From assembly GCA_001778875.1 (NCBI GenBank), contig MFIK01000010.1, positions 4,936-48,633 of the forward strand: a DNA stretch of 43,698 nt, read 5' to 3'. The stretch is from Candidatus Giovannonibacteria bacterium RIFCSPLOWO2_02_FULL_43_54. Lineage in GTDB: Bacteria > Patescibacteriota > Minisyncoccia > UBA11713 > 2-01-FULL-45-33. The translations under genes and the position numbers were made by a program. Below the pieces are notes generated by a model. It was not told the origin of the DNA. It did not search any database and saw only the letters and a program-made list of their open reading frames with translations. Below are positions 7,703 to 41,990 of this stretch, piece after piece. Numbering within the stretch: the stretch's first letter is position 1; each line of letters opens with the position of its first letter.

Positions 7703-8206
7703 TTATTTTTTAACCATGGCCATTCGGATGAGGTCGTGGTATTGGCCGCGCCAATAGTATTCGTCTTTGAGAATTCCTTCTTTTTTGAAACCAAGCTTTT
7801 GGTAGATGTGCCATGCTTTTTTATTCGTTACCCAGCAGACACCCCAGACTTTGTGGAGTTTTAACCTAGAGAAGGCGATATGCAAAAGATGCCCGATAGC
7901 TTCCTCTGCGAAGCCGTTGCCCCAGTTTTCTTTGGTTATGAATACAGAGAACCTGCCGAATTTGTTCGGCCAGCTGATCTGATTTATGGAACACTGGCCG
8001 ATATAGGCGTTATCGGCTCTGCAGAATATTGAAAAAGCAAAATCGTTTTTGCCGGCAATGACCTTCTTGATAAATTTAAGCTCTTCTTTTTTAGTAAAAC
8101 CCTTGAAGTTCTGGAAGTTTTTAACGACGTCCGGATCATTGACCCATTTCATTATATTTTCTATATCTTCCTTTTTGAGGGGTTTTAAAATGAGACGATT
8201 TTGCAT
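7703..8206 (-). CDS. GNAT acetyltransferase, RimJ/RimL type
   Basis: 167 aa with the RimL/RimJ-like layout: RLILKPLKKEDIENIMKW at the N-terminus, IGQCSINQISW (beta 2-3), the acetyl-CoA loop region ENWGNGFAEEAIGHLL, and the C-terminal NKKAWHIYQKLGFKKEG that marks the family. The substrate is unknown; relatives acetylate protein N-termini or small molecules. ATG 8204-8206 overlaps the nrtR stop as TGATG, so it is the third gene of nadE-nrtR-GNAT. A TTG at 8209 is an alternative start. Its role in the NAD operon is unclear; it may simply be co-regulated. Confidence 0.85.
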   Translation of the reverse strand: MQNRLILKPLKKEDIENIMKWVNDPDVVKNFQNFKGFTKKEELKFIKKVIAGKNDFAFSIFCRADNAYIGQCSINQISWPNKFGRFSVFITKENWGNGFAEEAIGHLLHIAFSRLKLHKVWGVCWVTNKKAWHIYQKLGFKKEGILKDEYYWRGQYHDLIRMAMVKK

Positions 8207-8901
8207 CAAAAGAATTTTTTAAGCGAGGAGGGTTTCCGCGACTTGAATTCGTAGAGCTTCGCCGGCCTTGAGCGCGTGCCTCTTAAGATCTGCTTGGTCG
8301 GACGGATGAGGTCAAGCGACAGGAATTTTTTCCTGAAGTTTCTTTTATCGAGTTTTCTGCCGAAAATTATTTCATAGGCTTTTTGCAATTCGGAGAAGGC
8401 GAAGAATTTTTGCAGAATGGAATAGACCACGTTTGTGTATTCAAGTTTCGCGCGAAGACGCAAGAGCGCTAGCTCAATAATCTCTTTATGGTCGAACGCG
8501 AGGCGCGGCAATTTATTTACCGGATAGAGTTTTGGAGACTGAATGCCTGCTTGCCGGTTAGGCAGGTTCTTCCCTAGCCTTATTTTAAGATTTTTTTCTT
8601 CGACAAGAGCAAAATAGGTTATTGAAATTGTGTGCCCCCGCGGGTCGCGGAAACGCGAATCAAAAGTATAGAGCTGTTCCAGATATCCTCCGGCCTGGAC
8701 TCCGGTTTTAGATCGGAGCGCTCTTTTAGCGGCCTCAAGCCCGCTTTCATTTTTCAATAAAAAGACGCCTGGAAGTGCAGGCGAGCCTTTGAATGGGACA
8801 TCGGCGCGCTTGATCAAAAGCACCTTAAGCACTCCGTCTTGTATAGTAAAGATAACAGTGTCGGCTGTGACATATGGCGATTCGTAAATTATTTTTTTCA
8901 T
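8206..8901 (-). CDS. nrtR: NrtR-family Nudix-related repressor of NAD metabolism
   Basis: 231 aa from ATG 8899-8901, which overlaps the nadE stop as ATGA. The N-terminal Nudix-like domain (about 8-145) has LPGVFLLKNESGLEAAKRAL, but the catalytic REUxEE is replaced by RALRSK, so hydrolysis is probably lost. The C-terminal winged helix (about 155-225) has YTNVVYSILQKFFAFSELQK and DKRNFRKK, the hallmark of NrtR. Family members bind ADP-ribose-type ligands and repress NAD salvage genes. The longer frame to 9057 only overlaps nadE. Residues 113-119 (LPNRQAG) come from a small palindromic repeat (8544-8566) lying in frame between the two domains. Confidence 0.92.
   Translation of the reverse strand: MKKIIYESPYVTADTVIFTIQDGVLKVLLIKRADVPFKGSPALPGVFLLKNESGLEAAKRALRSKTGVQAGGYLEQLYTFDSRFRDPRGHTISITYFALVEEKNLKIRLGKNLPNRQAGIQSPKLYPVNKLPRLAFDHKEIIELALLRLRAKLEYTNVVYSILQKFFAFSELQKAYEIIFGRKLDKRNFRKKFLSLDLIRPTKQILRGTRSRPAKLYEFKSRKPSSLKKFF
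8544..8566. repeat. Degenerate palindromic repeat inside nrtR
   Basis: TGCCTGC ... GGCAGG around TTGCCGGTTA; a decayed relative of the perfect palindrome at 29276-29295. It encodes PNRQAG in frame in the interdomain linker. Confidence 0.6.
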
Positions 8902-10895
8902 TTCAAATCTTTTAACCAAATTTTTACCTCCGCGTCCGATGGCATGCGCCAGTCGCCTCGTGGTGAGAGGGAGACGGACCCGACCTTCGGCCCGTCCGGC
9001 ATTACGGATCTCTTCCACTGATTTTTGAAAAATCTTGTAATAAAAACTTTCAGCCATTTTTTGATTTCGGCTTCGGTAAATTTCGACTTGGAAGCTAAGC
9101 TTCCAAGCGGAAGCTTAGCTTCCTGAAATGCTAATTTTGCCAGAAAAAGGATTTTCGAAGTAGAAGAGCCCCACCTGACGAAATGATAAAGAAAAAAGTC
9201 GTGCAGGGCATAGGGCCCGACCAGCTTTTCGGTTTCTTGTATCTTTGTCTTTTTATCGCGAGCTTGTCGAACGGTCACAAGCTCAGGTGAAATGGGGGTC
9301 GCCAAAATATCTTTAAGAACTTTTTGGGCGCCCAAAAATTCTTTTTGCTCGGAAACCCAATTTACAAGGTATTTAACAAGGGTTTTAGGGATACTGGCGT
9401 TAACATTGTAGTGTGAAATATGGTCGCCGTTAAAAGTGCACCAGCCGAGCGCAATCTCCGAGAGGTCGCCGGTGCCCAATACTATCCCATGAAGCTGGTT
9501 CGATTTATTCATCAGGATCATTGTGCGGTATCTGGCTTGGGTATTTTGATAGGTTACATCTTCCGCGCCTTTGTGTTTCAATTCTGCAAGATGAACCGTT
9601 ACTCCTTTTAAGATGTTTATTTCTTCTAAGGTTATTCCAAGCGCTTCAGCGAGTTTTTTTGCGTTTGATTTCGTCCGCTTCGAGGTCCCGAACCCTGGCA
9701 TCGTGAAGGCATAAATATTTTTTTTCGATAATTTCAGCAATTCGCAGGTTTTTACGGCGACAAGCAGAGCAAGGGTCGAGTCCAGTCCTCCGGAGAGCCC
9801 GAGGATGATTTTATTCATGCGCGCGGACTCAAGCCGTTTAGCAAGTCCGGCGGTCTGGATCGAAAAGATTTCCTCGCTTCTTTTATCGAGCTCCAGGGTG
9901 TTTTGAGGGACGAAAGGATATGGGTCGATATGTCGGGATAAGGATGTCACACGTCCACTTGGACGTCCGACATCAAAGTTTGGTATTTCAATAAATCTAA
10001 AGTCCTTTTTTGGAGATTCGCGGATAGATTCTCCGAAGCTCGTTGTTTTAGCGCGGTCGTGGAGAAGGTGTTCAATATCAATATCGCCGTAAATTATTTC
10101 TCCGTCGCGCTCGAATCTTTTTGATTCTTTTATGATCGTCCCGTTTTCTGCTATTATCGCGTGCCCGCCGAAAACAAGATCGGTGGTCGATTCATTTACT
10201 CCGCAGCTTGAATGTATATAAGCCGAGATGATGCGCGCCGATTGCTGAATAACCAGGTCTTTTCTATAATCTGCTTTTCCGACCAATTCATTCGAGGCAG
10301 AAAGGTTCGCGATGATATTCGCGCCGTGGGGCGCCTGATAAGAGCTGGGAGGATTTGGCGTCCAAAGGTCTTCACAGATCTCAATGCCCAATACCGCTTC
10401 AGGAAAGCCGGAAAATCTGAATAAAATATCTGTGCTGATCGGAATATCATTTCCAAGCAGTTCCGATGAAAAAAACGTTGCGGTCAGGTCTCTGGCCGAT
10501 GCGAACCAGCGTTCTTCGTAAAATTCTTTATATCCGGGAATATAGGTTTTGGGGACGATTCCTAAAATTTTTCCTTTGCAGATTACTATGGCCGCGTTAA
10601 ATAATTTTCCTGATGTTTCGATCGGCGCTCCGACGATGATGAGAGATTTAATTTCCTCAGAGAAAGTCTTAATTTTATTAAGGCTTTCGGTCGATTTTTC
10701 CAGCAGTTTCCGCTGAAAAAAAAGATCGGCCGAGGTGTAGCCTGTGGTCGAAAGTTCTGGGAAGACAATTATTTTAGCGCCGTTTGTTTCCGCCTTTTTT
10801 GCAAATTCGATGATCTTTTCGGCGTTGTATTCCATGTCGGCCACTTTGAGAGGAGGGGATACGGCCGCTATTTTTATGTATCCGAAGTTTTCCAT
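8898..10895 (-). CDS. nadE: Glutamine-dependent NAD+ synthetase
   Basis: 665 aa, the long two-domain form. The N-terminal nitrilase-type glutaminase has Glu47 (FPELSTTGY), Lys116 (VPKTYIPGY) and Cys174 (GIEICEDLW). The C-terminal synthetase has the PP-loop SGGLDS (368-373), then GFGTSKRTKSNA and LGTGDLSEIALGW. It amidates deamido-NAD with ammonia from glutamine. Two palindromic elements lie in frame: one encoding about residues 308-318 (DVGRPSGRVTS, 9943-9974) and one about 591-603 (KLPLGSLASKSKF, 9088-9123). First gene of nadE-nrtR-GNAT, with ATGA coupling to nrtR. The minus-strand -10 TATAAT (10924-10929) lies inside the NrtR operator. Confidence 0.95.
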   Translation of the reverse strand: MENFGYIKIAAVSPPLKVADMEYNAEKIIEFAKKAETNGAKIIVFPELSTTGYTSADLFFQRKLLEKSTESLNKIKTFSEEIKSLIIVGAPIETSGKLFNAAIVICKGKILGIVPKTYIPGYKEFYEERWFASARDLTATFFSSELLGNDIPISTDILFRFSGFPEAVLGIEICEDLWTPNPPSSYQAPHGANIIANLSASNELVGKADYRKDLVIQQSARIISAYIHSSCGVNESTTDLVFGGHAIIAENGTIIKESKRFERDGEIIYGDIDIEHLLHDRAKTTSFGESIRESPKKDFRFIEIPNFDVGRPSGRVTSLSRHIDPYPFVPQNTLELDKRSEEIFSIQTAGLAKRLESARMNKIILGLSGGLDSTLALLVAVKTCELLKLSKKNIYAFTMPGFGTSKRTKSNAKKLAEALGITLEEINILKGVTVHLAELKHKGAEDVTYQNTQARYRTMILMNKSNQLHGIVLGTGDLSEIALGWCTFNGDHISHYNVNASIPKTLVKYLVNWVSEQKEFLGAQKVLKDILATPISPELVTVRQARDKKTKIQETEKLVGPYALHDFFLYHFVRWGSSTSKILFLAKLAFQEAKLPLGSLASKSKFTEAEIKKWLKVFITRFFKNQWKRSVMPDGPKVGSVSLSPRGDWRMPSDAEVKIWLKDLK
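9088..9123. repeat. Double palindrome inside nadE (C-terminal part)
   Basis: TTGGAAGCTAAGCTTCCAA (9088-9106) is a perfect palindrome around A, followed by GGAAGCTTAGCTTCC (9109-9123). In frame, encoding LPLGSLAS between two helices. Confidence 0.7.
9943..9974. repeat. 32-bp hairpin element inside nadE (interdomain)
   Basis: Nested arms GATGTC/GACATC and ACGTCCA/TGGACGT. In frame, encoding VGRPSGRVTS between the glutaminase and synthetase domains. Confidence 0.7.
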
Positions 10896-14770: not shown

Positions 14771-14795
14771 ATCCCCTTCCATTCCACCATCTCTT

Positions 14796-14818
14796 TGGTC
14801 AACGTGGCAGGTTGACCA
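14796..14818. repeat. REP-like palindrome left of the RAYT gene
   Basis: TGGTCAAC (14796-14803) and GTTGACCA (14811-14818) form an 8-bp perfect stem around GTGGCAG. A related copy lies 8 bp after the transposase gene and another inside it. Confidence 0.8.
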
Positions 14819-14846
14819 TTTTGCGCCGACATATATAATAGAGTCT

Positions 14847-15518
14847 ATGAACAAACAAACTTTTTTCGAAGGAGAGCAGCCATTATTTCACATATTTAAC
14901 AGGGGTGTTGAAAAAAGAGAGATTTTTTTAGACGACAACGACAGAAATAGATTTTTATTTTTACTTTGCGTCCTTCAAGGCGATATTTTTTTCAACCACT
15001 CGTCGAGACTGGCTAAGGAGTTTGGTCAACGTGGCAGGTTAGCCATAGAGGAAATTATCGGAGATATTATAGACGCTAAAGTTGTTGAGCTTGTAGGTTT
15101 TGTTCTTATGCCAAATCATTTTCATTTGATTGTTCAGGAATTGAAAGAAGGAGGTGTTACTAAATTTATGAGCCGGCTGTCTAATAGTTATACAAAGTAT
15201 TTCAATATCAAAAATGACCGTAAAGGTTATTTGTTTGGTAGCAGTTTTCATAAAAAATTGATTGATACAAATGAATACCTTTTGCATCTATCGGCATATA
15301 TTCATCGCAACCCCCGCGAAATAAAGAAATGGAACAATAAGGAGAGTGATTATCCTTGGTCCAGTTATCAAGATTATATTGGCGAAAACAGATGGGGCAG
15401 CCTGTTGAATCCGGAAATAATTTTAGATCAATTCTCCAACAAAAAAGAATATTTAGAATTTACCAGATCCAGTAGTGCAAAATTAAAAGAATTCGAATTG
15501 GCATTGGAATTTGACTAA
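14847..15518 (+). CDS. REP-associated tyrosine transposase (RAYT, Y1 family)
   Basis: 223 aa with the single-strand DNA transposase signature LMPNHFHLIVQ (87-97; HFH metal-binding pair at 91 and 93), a nucleophile candidate Tyr115 in LSNSYTKYFN, KGYLFGSSFHKK (126-137) and the C-terminal HRNPREIKKWNNKESDYPWSS stretch typical of RAYTs. Such enzymes cut REP palindromes at a hairpin. Flanking copies of GTCAAC...GTTGACC palindromes at 14796 and 15526 are the natural substrates. A third copy lies in frame (15023-15045, encoding FGQRGRLA). The gene appears intact. TATAAT (14834-14839) lies 7 nt before the ATG. Confidence 0.9.
   Translation: MNKQTFFEGEQPLFHIFNRGVEKREIFLDDNDRNRFLFLLCVLQGDIFFNHSSRLAKEFGQRGRLAIEEIIGDIIDAKVVELVGFVLMPNHFHLIVQELKEGGVTKFMSRLSNSYTKYFNIKNDRKGYLFGSSFHKKLIDTNEYLLHLSAYIHRNPREIKKWNNKESDYPWSSYQDYIGENRWGSLLNPEIILDQFSNKKEYLEFTRSSSAKLKEFELALEFD
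15023..15045. repeat. REP-like palindrome inside the RAYT gene
   Basis: TGGTCAACGTGGCAGGTT followed by AGCCA; identical to the left copy for 18 bases. TGGCTAA (15010-15016) pairs with TTAGCCA (15039-15045) as an alternative stem. Confidence 0.75.
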
Positions 15519-15525
15519 AGTTAAA

Positions 15526-15548
15526 TGATCAACCTGGCAGGTTGACCA
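15526..15548. repeat. REP-like palindrome right of the RAYT gene
   Basis: TGATCAACCTG (15526-15536), central G, CAGGTTGACCA (15538-15548): 10 of 11 pairs. Confidence 0.8.
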
Positions 15549-15639
15549 AAGTACGCTTATTATAAGCTTCCACTTTTAGCAATCTGTCAAGTTTTTAACG
15601 AAATTTGCCTTAAATGCTTTCTCCCGCTAAGATTTGAAT

Positions 15640-29253: not shown

Positions 29254-29396
29254 CAAATGAGGGTCAAGTGGGAGACCTGCCTGCCGGCAGGCAGGAAAAT
29301 CCCGGAGCCGGTAAGTCGGCTTGGCAACAGAACCCCCCGCGAACGGGGAAACTTGATGGAAAGTCAAAGTACCTTCTTCTCCGGTTCAAACCCGGA
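29254..29396 (+). other. Hairpin-rich non-coding stretch before repeat A
   Basis: Contains the perfect palindrome at 29276-29295, hairpin CCCCGCGAACGGGG, TTGATGGAAAGT (29353-29364) and a 5-bp/7-loop hairpin TCCGG-TTCAAAC-CCGGA (29380-29396). TTGATGGAA can pair with the left arm of repeat A, competing with that repeat's own right arm. No convincing gene; a 60-aa frame from 29257 crosses all these structures. Confidence 0.5.
29276..29295. repeat. 20-bp perfect palindrome
   Basis: CCTGCCTGCCGGCAGGCAGG, exactly self-complementary. The in-frame repeat in nrtR (8544-8566) is a decayed version. Confidence 0.85.
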
Positions 29397-32434: not shown

Positions 32435-32507
32435 GTCCCCGCCTGCAACGCTATGCCAACCCGTATCGCTACGCGAAGCGTTGCTGGCGGGCGTAGCATT
32501 GCGGGCA
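32435..32507. repeat. 73-bp palindromic repeat, intergenic copy
   Basis: Begins GTCCCCGCCTGCAACGC and ends TAGCATTGCGGGCA; 71 of 73 bases match the copy inside cysS (41334-41406). Each copy folds on itself: GCAACGCTA-type left arm against TAGCATTGC right arm, and GCTACGC/GCGAAGC in the centre. Confidence 0.92.
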
Positions 32508-32549
32508 AGTAGTCTGGTTAGTCACGATTTTCTTGAAATTTTAATCCAC

Positions 32550-39576: not shown

Positions 39577-40506
39577 ATGATAAATAATGTTTTGATTTTT
39601 GTCGCGGCGTTTCTGTTGGTTATTAAAGGGGCGTTGCTGGCCACAAAATATGCGGAAAGACTCGCGGAAAATTTTCATTTATCGAAATATACCGTTGGTT
39701 TTATTATTGTTGCCATTATATCTATACTTCCGGAGACATTTATATCCATTAACGCGGCAATCGAAGGAATACCGGCGTTTGGGCTTGGGATGCTTTTCGG
39801 CTCAAACATCGCCGACCTAACTTTGGTTTTTGCGGTAATCATTTTGACGGCCGGCCGGAGCCTTAAAGTTGAGAGTAATGTGTTGAAAAACCGTGCTTAT
39901 TCATTCCTTCTTCTTTTGCCGCTTGTCTTGGGTTTGGACGGGCATTTTTCCCGTCCGGAAGGAATGGTGCTTATTATTGCCGGAGCGATATTTTATTATA
40001 TAACCCTGAAGGACGGTACTGATGGATCGCCTTATTTGCACAATGGGGAAGGACGTATTAAAAATTTTTTAATGCTGCTTTTGAGTATGGCGATACTGCT
40101 CGTCGGCGCGCACTTTACAGTAACTTCGGCAACCGCAATTGCCGGTTATCTGGGAATAAGCCCGATTCTCATCGGAATGCTTGTTGTCGGACTGGGCACC
40201 ACAATGCCGGAACTTTTCTTTTCTTTGAGATCCGTAAAAAAAGATGACGACTCGCTAGCGATAGGGGATATTCTCGGTACGGTACTTGCGGACGCTACCG
40301 TCGTGGTTGGCGTTCTGGCTTTGATCAGCCCGTTCGCGTTCCCGCAGAAAATAATCTATATAACTGGCGCGTTTATGGTTGCGGCTTCATTCATTCTATT
40401 TCACGTTATGCGCTCCGGCAGGACAATCTCAAAAAAAGAAGCGTATTTTCTTTTTTTCTTTTGGCTGATGTTCGTTTTAGCAGAGTTGATGGCGATGAGA
40501 GGCTAG
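39577..40506 (+). CDS. Sodium/calcium exchanger family (CaCA) membrane protein
   Basis: 309 aa with about ten membrane helices and two inverted alpha repeats: ISILPETFISINAAIEG with GMLFGSNIAD (about 48-80) and GLGTTMPELFFSLRSV with AIGDILGTVLADA (about 205-245). The Pro-Glu pairs in each repeat are the ion-binding residues of the family. Ion specificity cannot be read from the sequence. ATG 39577 is exactly 6 nt after TATAAT (39565-39570), so a leaderless start is preferred to 39541. Its stop overlaps the convergent cysS stop by 4 bp. Confidence 0.9.
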   Translation: MINNVLIFVAAFLLVIKGALLATKYAERLAENFHLSKYTVGFIIVAIISILPETFISINAAIEGIPAFGLGMLFGSNIADLTLVFAVIILTAGRSLKVESNVLKNRAYSFLLLLPLVLGLDGHFSRPEGMVLIIAGAIFYYITLKDGTDGSPYLHNGEGRIKNFLMLLLSMAILLVGAHFTVTSATAIAGYLGISPILIGMLVVGLGTTMPELFFSLRSVKKDDDSLAIGDILGTVLADATVVVGVLALISPFAFPQKIIYITGAFMVAASFILFHVMRSGRTISKKEAYFLFFFWLMFVLAELMAMRG

Positions 40507-41990
40507 GCGTGGTGTTTTAACAACGGACCTCCATGCGCGTCCTGGATCTCCCAGCCAAGATCATAGATTTTTTGGCGCAGAAAGTCGGCAACGGCAAAAT
40601 CATGTAATTTTCTGGCGGTCTCCCGCTCTTTTAGAAGCCGTAAAATATCCTCGCCGGGTTTTTTCGGCTCGCGGCGGACATCGGCAAGTCCAAACCCAAA
40701 CATGCGATCGAACTCCAAAATAAGCCCCAAAACCTCACTTGCGGCGTATTTTTGACTATTTTTATTGTATTCGTTTATGATCACCCAGACTCGCGCCAGA
40801 GCTTTCGGCGTATCAAGGTCATTTAAAAAAGCTTCTTTCGCCTCGCTTGCAAATTTTGCAAGGACACACATATTTTTTTTATCTTGCAAAACTTGTGTCC
40901 TTGGCTCATTAAGCTTTTTTAAATTCAAAACGAAATCTTTAAGGCGTTCCAAAGAATTCTGTGCGAATTTTAACGACTCCAAGGTAAAGTTGAGTTGTGT
41001 GCGGTAATGCGCGCCAAGCACTAGATATCGAAAGGCAAGTGGGTCGAAATTTTTATTTTCAAGGTCGCGCAACGTAAAAACATTTCCTAGAGATTTCGAC
41101 ATCTTTTTCCCGTCCACCAATAAATGCTCGCCCTCAATAAAATATTTTACGAATCTTTTTTTTGTGGCACCCTCCGACTGCGCTATTTCATTTTCATGAT
41201 GCGGAAAAAGCAGATCGATGCCTCCGGCATGGATATCAAAGCCCTCTCCCAAATATTTCATACTCATCGCGGAGCACTCAATATGCCACCCAGGGCGCCC
41301 TTCGCCCCACGGAGATGGCCATGACGGTTCGCTGTCCCCGCCTGCAACGCTATGCCAGCCCGCATCGCTACGCGAAGCGTTGCTGGCGGGCGTAGCATTG
41401 CGGGCAGGTTTTTTTGCTTTCCACAAAACAAAATCTTCCGCACTTCCTTTTTCGTATTCGTCGGAATCGGTTCTGCGGAAGTCCGATCCGCCTTTGGCGA
41501 GATCCGACTTCCGAAGCCGTGAAAGCCGGCCATACTTTTTGAATTTAGAAACATCAAAATAAACCGACCCGTCGGAGCGATAAGCAAGCTTATTTTTTAT
41601 CAGTGTTTTTATCACGCCTATCATTTCCTTAATATGGTCCGTCGCTTTCGGATATTTCCACGCGGGTTCGATATTTAATTTTTTAATATCGTTATAAAAC
41701 GCCGCCTCATAAGGTTTCGTAAATTCAAAAATACTTTTTTGGGCCTCTCGCGCATTTTTGATTATCTTATCTTCGACATCGGTTATATTTATCACGTGCT
41801 TTACTTTATATCCTGCGGATTCCAGCGTGCGGCGCAATACATCTTCAAAAATATAAGTCCGCAAATTTCCGATATGCGCGTAATTATAAACCGTCGGTCC
41901 GCAAGTATATAAACCGACTTGCCCTTTTTTAGTCGGCTTAAAAATCTCCTTTTTGCGCGTTAAAAAATTGTAGAGCTTAATCGTAGCCAT
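40503..41990 (-). CDS. cysS: Cysteinyl-tRNA synthetase with two in-frame palindromic insertions
   Basis: 495 aa class I synthetase. CGPTVYNYAHIGNLR (30-44; HIGN 39-42), zinc-site WHIECSAMS, HAGGIDLLFPHHENEIAQSE and KMSKSLGN are intact. Between FVLWKAKKP and EPSWPSPWGEGRPGWHIEC, where these blocks usually adjoin, about 25 residues (about 195-219, ARNATPASNASRSDAGWHSVAGGD) are encoded by a 73-bp repeat that also occurs at 32435. A second insertion (about 363-379, QVLQDKKNMCVLAKFA) lies in the helical region after KKLNE and matches the recR element. The frame is open throughout, so the enzyme presumably tolerates both. Confidence 0.96.
   Translation of the reverse strand: MATIKLYNFLTRKKEIFKPTKKGQVGLYTCGPTVYNYAHIGNLRTYIFEDVLRRTLESAGYKVKHVINITDVEDKIIKNAREAQKSIFEFTKPYEAAFYNDIKKLNIEPAWKYPKATDHIKEMIGVIKTLIKNKLAYRSDGSVYFDVSKFKKYGRLSRLRKSDLAKGGSDFRRTDSDEYEKGSAEDFVLWKAKKPARNATPASNASRSDAGWHSVAGGDSEPSWPSPWGEGRPGWHIECSAMSMKYLGEGFDIHAGGIDLLFPHHENEIAQSEGATKKRFVKYFIEGEHLLVDGKKMSKSLGNVFTLRDLENKNFDPLAFRYLVLGAHYRTQLNFTLESLKFAQNSLERLKDFVLNLKKLNEPRTQVLQDKKNMCVLAKFASEAKEAFLNDLDTPKALARVWVIINEYNKNSQKYAASEVLGLILEFDRMFGFGLADVRREPKKPGEDILRLLKERETARKLHDFAVADFLRQKIYDLGWEIQDAHGGPLLKHHA
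40854..40902. repeat. Palindromic element inside cysS (family shared with recR)
   Basis: TTTTGCAAG (40854-40862)/CTTGCAAAA (40883-40891) and AAGGACACA (40860-40868)/TGTGTCCTT (40894-40902): two perfect 9-bp pairs whose arms overlap, so they cannot nest and would form alternative or pseudoknot-like folds. Confidence 0.78.
41334..41406. repeat. 73-bp palindromic repeat inside cysS
   Basis: Same sequence as 32435-32507 with two changes (A/G and T/C in the left half). Lies in frame; its length is not a multiple of three, so the inserted unit or the target duplication must differ slightly from these limits. Confidence 0.92.

Follow-up and report, generated by a model that had tools for sequence, protein, structure and literature searches.

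Cysteine--tRNA ligase is encoded here by a cysS gene (40503–41990, minus strand; TIGR00435, 468.9 bits with the cut-off at 340) whose 495-amino acid product is lengthened by a palindromic stretch of DNA read in frame, which raises the question of whether these residues belong to the synthetase or were written into it by a mobile sequence. We consider it likely, with a probability of roughly 0.8, that the insert represents a short, non-autonomous hairpin element in nested form, moved in trans. The evidence for this reading consists of exact 72-bp empty sites, three near-identical copies, sharp ends, a wide distribution, a frame bias, clean 12-residue gaps in host proteins, hairpin covariation, the occurrence of nested and un-nested states, and predicted disorder; the observations that count against it are identified as such below.

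The cysS insert and its nested architecture

The insert, PARNATPASNASRSDAGWHSVAGG, occupies positions 41337–41408 (minus strand) of the window, that is, the whole 43,698-nt stretch of DNA analysed, and supplies 24 codons (residues 195–218) in the form of a nested double unit. Its limits are set by the same-genus cysS genes (DNA alignment, two genomes), both of which run without interruption through the point where the present gene reads GCAAAAAA, 72 bp, GACAGCGAACCG. In a 22-sequence protein alignment, residues matching the insert are found in none of the 21 relatives, one of which (L054) has a short, dissimilar insertion near the site, and a solved CysS homologue from the PDB aligns up to residue 196 and resumes at 220. 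The AlphaFold model, mostly confident elsewhere (mean pLDDT 85.7), assigns values below 50 to residues 197–218; the insert is predicted to be disordered and would be tolerated by the synthetase. The cysS copy folds far better than shuffled sequences on both strands (z of −4.5 and −5.6), and the only Rfam match in the window is a tRNA.

The initial annotation had reported a 73-bp palindrome that adds about 25 residues between two normally adjoining blocks without breaking the frame. The location, the in-frame addition between those blocks and the hairpin-forming character of the repeat are borne out by the 24 codons and the same-genus empty sites, whereas the length becomes 72 bp in two nested 36-bp units, the added residues number 24, and the coordinates of both copies move by 2–3 bases. 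The orthologue comparison that it had proposed fixed the exact insert and revealed no target duplication, and orthologues encoding the same residues in non-palindromic DNA, which it had named as evidence to the contrary, were not found among the same-genus genes, the 21 relatives or the solved homologue.

The genome-wide count of copies that it had also suggested combined searches of the whole genome (740 kb, 96% complete) with 264 kb of sampled stretches, window included, and brought the number of 72-mers to three: in cysS, in an intergenic twin at 32438–32509, and, on a different contig and 96% identical, in frame within gatA (TIGR00132). The two copies originally noticed are where they had been reported and differ at 2 of 73 bases, or 3 over a 76-nt match. 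The gatA genes of genomes G001 and G002 represent the empty site, relative to which the insert is exactly 72 bp, and a target duplication is seen at neither the cysS nor the gatA empty site. A solo 36-bp unit lies in frame in the ribosomal protein S9 gene (rpsI) on contig C46 of the same genome.

Within the 72-mer, the two halves of an outer unit, CCCGCCTGCAACGCTATG (41337–41354) and CGTAGCATTGCGGGCAGG (41391–41408), together make up the solo 36-mer found at C12:19945 in the same genome. They enclose an inner 36-bp unit, CCAGCCCGCATCGCTACGCGAAGCGTTGCTGGCGGG (41355–41390, plus strand), which is alignable with family variants, is oriented opposite to the outer unit and is placed exactly at its dyad centre (18|18). 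The same central nesting in the same orientation occurs in a second genome (L174), one orthologous site 3' of a tRNA is nested here and un-nested in G002 (L005, L030), and three Lentisphaerae loci (L085, L103, L150) have a common composite with one unit off-centre inside another. Both lengths, 36 and 72, are divisible by three, so the frame is preserved whether the unit is solo or nested. One unit would have entered the centre of another to give the 72-bp, 24-codon composite, which may then have been copied whole to cysS, gatA and one intergenic site. In many genomes the 36-bp unit has sharp ends and unrelated flanks, and nearly all variants begin with CCYG and end with CRGG. Palindromes of 20–21 bp, such as CCTGCCTGCCGGCAGGCAGG, have the outer arms of the 36-mer (window positions 8546–8566 and 29276–29295; L070, L074, L076, L082); the one at 8546 falls within an NtrR-like NUDIX open reading frame (ORF; 8206–9057), where it reads NRQAG.

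Hairpin structure and distribution of the 36-bp unit

Covariation was analysed in 62 distinct variants, which are related to one another and were in part selected by a pattern that fixed many positions, a dependence that counts against the mobile-element reading. The pairs with the highest mutual information (16-26, 12-20, 3-30 and 11-21) are all mainly Watson-Crick. Two hairpins were compared, H1 (1–5 with 28–32, 11–14 with 18–21) and H2 (5–9 with 32–36, 16–19 with 23–26). Each of them beats all 500 shuffles in paired cells, compensatory cells and covariation score, and each beats all slid controls; the counts of pairs changed on both sides are unexceptional relative to shuffles, so the weight of the covariation evidence falls on a small number of pairs that vary strongly. 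A single symmetric palindrome was rejected as the conserved structure, its covariation score being matched by 488 of 500 shuffles, and in it positions 7 and 30, and likewise 11 and 26, mostly fail to pair. H1 and H2 occupy overlapping positions and are mutually exclusive on one strand; read from the opposite strand, H2 takes on the H1 geometry, so that a hairpin is possible at the 5' end of either strand. In the variants, covariation supports a pair of interleaved hairpins, one for each strand, over a single simple palindrome. With such alternative hairpins, both strands could offer a similar folded substrate to a trans-acting enzyme, for which a hairpin-recognising, single-strand-type transposase would be our guess.

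A 30-base degenerate pattern, run against about 85,000 genomes, yielded at least 116 stretches with the 36-bp unit, from many groups of Patescibacteria and from PVC bacteria. Among the matches listed, the PVC carriers are Kiritimatiellae, Lentisphaerae, Verrucomicrobia and an Akkermansia metagenome-assembled genome (MAG), and one Acidobacteria MAG also has the unit; in the same set, the 36-mer is often identical at 36 of 36 positions between phyla, and one variant recurs without change at 43 loci, of which 16 are PVC. The earlier suggestion that the repeat belongs to a lineage other than Rickettsia is correct, but the 36-bp unit is not confined to that lineage, and recent spread, proposed from the high identity, plausibly applies to the 72-mer copies of this genome, whereas identity across phyla may also stem from sequence constraint. 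Element-rich genomes, picked for having matches, have about 10 to 50 copies each and none of a reversed control pattern. The family is patchy, with a copy at no more than two mismatches in 15 of 380 Patescibacteria genomes, and the lack of a close copy in most of them counts against a mobile element. Phage and plasmid records gave no match to the 36-mer. Six IMG/VR stretches of putative viral contigs (L251–L256) bear the unit and are a possible vehicle between hosts.

Reading frame, target sites and the question of a partner enzyme

For a census of reading frames, the 36 bp were excised from 120 copies and the longest ORF through the junction was taken. ORFs of at least 120 codons surround 73 copies, 50 of which have a single setting of orientation and phase out of six. 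In Patescibacteria, 39 of the 46 copies that lie in long ORFs have this setting, with p = 7e-24 against an expectation of 1/6 and 2.5e-17 against 1/4, values that are nominal because the ORF calls are mechanical, with lower reliability for GC-rich PVC genomes, and because descent accounts for some shared sites. Among PVC copies, 7 of 20 have the preferred setting, which is not significant against 1/4 and counts against the mobile-element reading. The preferred setting puts CCT GCC CGC AAY GCT ... GGC GGG exactly between codons and encodes the peptide PARNA(S/T)(H/R)S(D/V)AGG, a linker of the PARNASHSDAGG type that, together with PARNATHSVAGG, is among the predicted element-encoded peptides.

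The host genes, as identified by NCBIfam, encode HisRS, RadA, S2 (twice), S9 (twice), S5, MurE, MurD, RF1, OTC and PTH, as well as PheRS-beta, AlaRS, Fpg, SecA, RNase J, PurL, GAPDH, TrpRS, PNPase, PilB, SSB and GyrB. In S2, one S9, SSB, PurL and PilB the insert is near the N-terminus, beyond the matched domain. In alignments with solved homologues, the peptide of TrpRS and of MetRS falls on a clean 12-residue gap; for GAPDH, TsaD and S9 this gap is looser.

The frame bias is most simply explained by selection on the peptide, since judging from the translations the preferred frame is hydrophilic and free of cysteine while the others contain stops, cysteines or hydrophobic runs. One of the six frames of the 12-codon unit would then be a benign linker, and copies that land between codons in that orientation would survive in essential proteins. 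Alternatively, the bias might come from the insertion machinery itself, through codon-phase or strand-specific targeting, for example via mRNA or transcription. Such targeting would suit the extreme bias in Patescibacteria ORFs of at least 180 codons (31 of 35) despite four to five of the six frames of the unit being open, as well as the AAAAAA that directly precedes the 72-mer in both cysS and gatA. However, the flank preference of the 36-bp unit is weak, the PVC copies are without strong bias and we know of no machinery that senses codon phase, and we regard this explanation as unlikely.

Selection on the peptide would act on an element that inserts precisely and without target duplication. 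Across the family, flanking duplications of 3–6 bp show no clear excess over shuffles, and those of 2 bp (18 versus 10 expected) show a weak excess for which GG runs may account. Hairpin loops were rejected as a general target, as stems are no more frequent overall at 114 joined empty sites than at random positions; the fits are limited to the element's own dyad centre, one REP loop and a few PVC stems.

A known route for moving palindromes in trans would be that of a REP sequence mobilised by a RAYT (REP-associated tyrosine transposase) encoded in its own genome. The hairpin form, the size and the lack of target duplication are all REP-like, several Y1_Tnp/RAYT genes are present in this genome, and a RAYT of one Lentisphaerae genome is flanked on either side by family members. 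On the other hand, the RAYTs of this genome and of 40-odd relatives and element-rich genomes are accompanied by other palindromes, and at none of the loci examined by the 36-mer. In the Lentisphaerae genome G461 (L317, L328), 38-bp family members lie within the own REP of a divergent RAYT, and their position inside that REP, with element-free REP copies alongside, makes the element a passenger there. In addition, PF01797 has no match in two element-rich genomes, even though G458, one of the two, has a divergent RAYT, and the 36-mer ends, CCYG and CRGG, have no GTAG or CGTC tag. Mobilisation by a resident RAYT is improbable on these grounds, and the absence of a mobilising enzyme from the loci examined, where RAYTs go with other palindromes, also counts against the mobile-element reading. 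A transposase flanked by G001 copies 0.7 kb apart was considered and none was seen there, and among the loci examined no gene was conspicuous for having a unit on each side.

The element-free REP copies of G461 amount to an empty site within one genome. RAYT genes often carry a palindrome of their own, different for each RAYT, upstream, downstream and inside the ORF (window 14793–15551; L015, L017, L203, L207, L208, L213, L217, L221, L222, L224), and internal copies in frame seem to recur across these lineages. The RAYT ORF of the window (14847–15518) matches NF047646 with an E-value of 4e-11, under the cut-off of that family.

Nearly all of the sources are metagenome assemblies, so the repeats could in principle be assembly or library artefacts common to such projects; this is very improbable given copies from many projects, some of them inside contigs of 0.7–1.05 Mb (L232, L235), the structured covariation, the strict frame bias, and one TrpRS insertion site common to two Moranbacteria (L121, L179). 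That the CysS residues are an ancestral or adaptive extension whose DNA is palindromic by chance would fit the intact frame and the variable, surface-type loop at the site, and is hardly credible with the same 72 bp in gatA and an intergenic site and an exact empty site in same-genus cysS genes.

Relation to known palindromic elements

The closest parallel is with the Rickettsia palindromic elements (RPEs; Ogata et al. 2000, via PMC2229807), which are 105–146 bp long, are hairpin repeats that occupy intergenic DNA and also, in frame, conserved protein genes, have no autonomous transposase, and have no established target duplication; translation and function of an RPE-bearing product have been shown for Rickettsia gmk (PMC2229807). 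The behaviour likened to theirs in the initial annotation is confirmed by in-frame copies in cysS, gatA and rpsI here and in many genes elsewhere, but membership is not: the present unit measures 36 bp, or 72 when nested, encodes a 12-residue peptide and occurs in Patescibacteria and PVC bacteria, and owing to these differences in size and lineage we do not file it as an RPE. The Wolbachia palindromic elements, too, insert in frame in protein genes without premature stops, in another lineage and with insertions of about 170–840 nt as opposed to 36 or 72 bp (PMC4224334, after Ogata et al. 2005). REPs, according to PMC3733652 and PMC2817692, are palindromic repeats of 20–40 bp that form hairpins with internal mismatches and composites, like the present unit, and most are extragenic and have a GTAG or CGTC tag; the 36-bp unit, in contrast, is often intragenic, has its own CCYG...CRGG ends and is not accompanied by a partner RAYT at the loci examined. 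Bacterial MITEs (Correia/NEMIS, ERIC, RUP) are likewise small and non-autonomous, and some are fused in frame to ORFs, whereas they measure about 100–200 bp and several have target duplications and TA ends (PMC2229807), neither of which is seen here.

Known protein-coding palindromes come from Rickettsia and Wolbachia, and the 36-bp element is far shorter and recurs almost unchanged in two groups of bacteria that are distant from each other and mostly uncultured, where the same peptide is placed in aminoacyl-tRNA synthetases, release factor 1, SecA, gyrase and ribosomal proteins. As a tentative proposal, the element, with its benign 12-residue linker and a hairpin per strand, may form a mobile class of its own that spreads between Patescibacteria and PVC bacteria via an enzyme acting in trans and repeatedly writes the same peptide into core proteins. 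A literature search returned no earlier description of it, which is weak evidence as most subscription papers were outside its reach. Whether selection or machinery sets the frame bias and which enzyme moves such minimal hairpins are testable questions, and insertions of 12 or 24 residues in Patescibacteria proteins can be mobile DNA rather than lineage adaptations.

A tRNA gene lies within about 1.5 kb of intergenic or mixed copies at 7 of 14 loci scanned (L002, L005, L020, L030, L034, L037, L039), a possible enrichment of copies close to tRNAs. In a Kiritimatiellae MAG (L169:3150-3274), two copies occupy the same position, GCACCCGTAGCTCAA^TTGGATAGAGTA in the D-loop region, of tandem tRNA 5' fragments that stand upstream of an intact tRNA-Arg.
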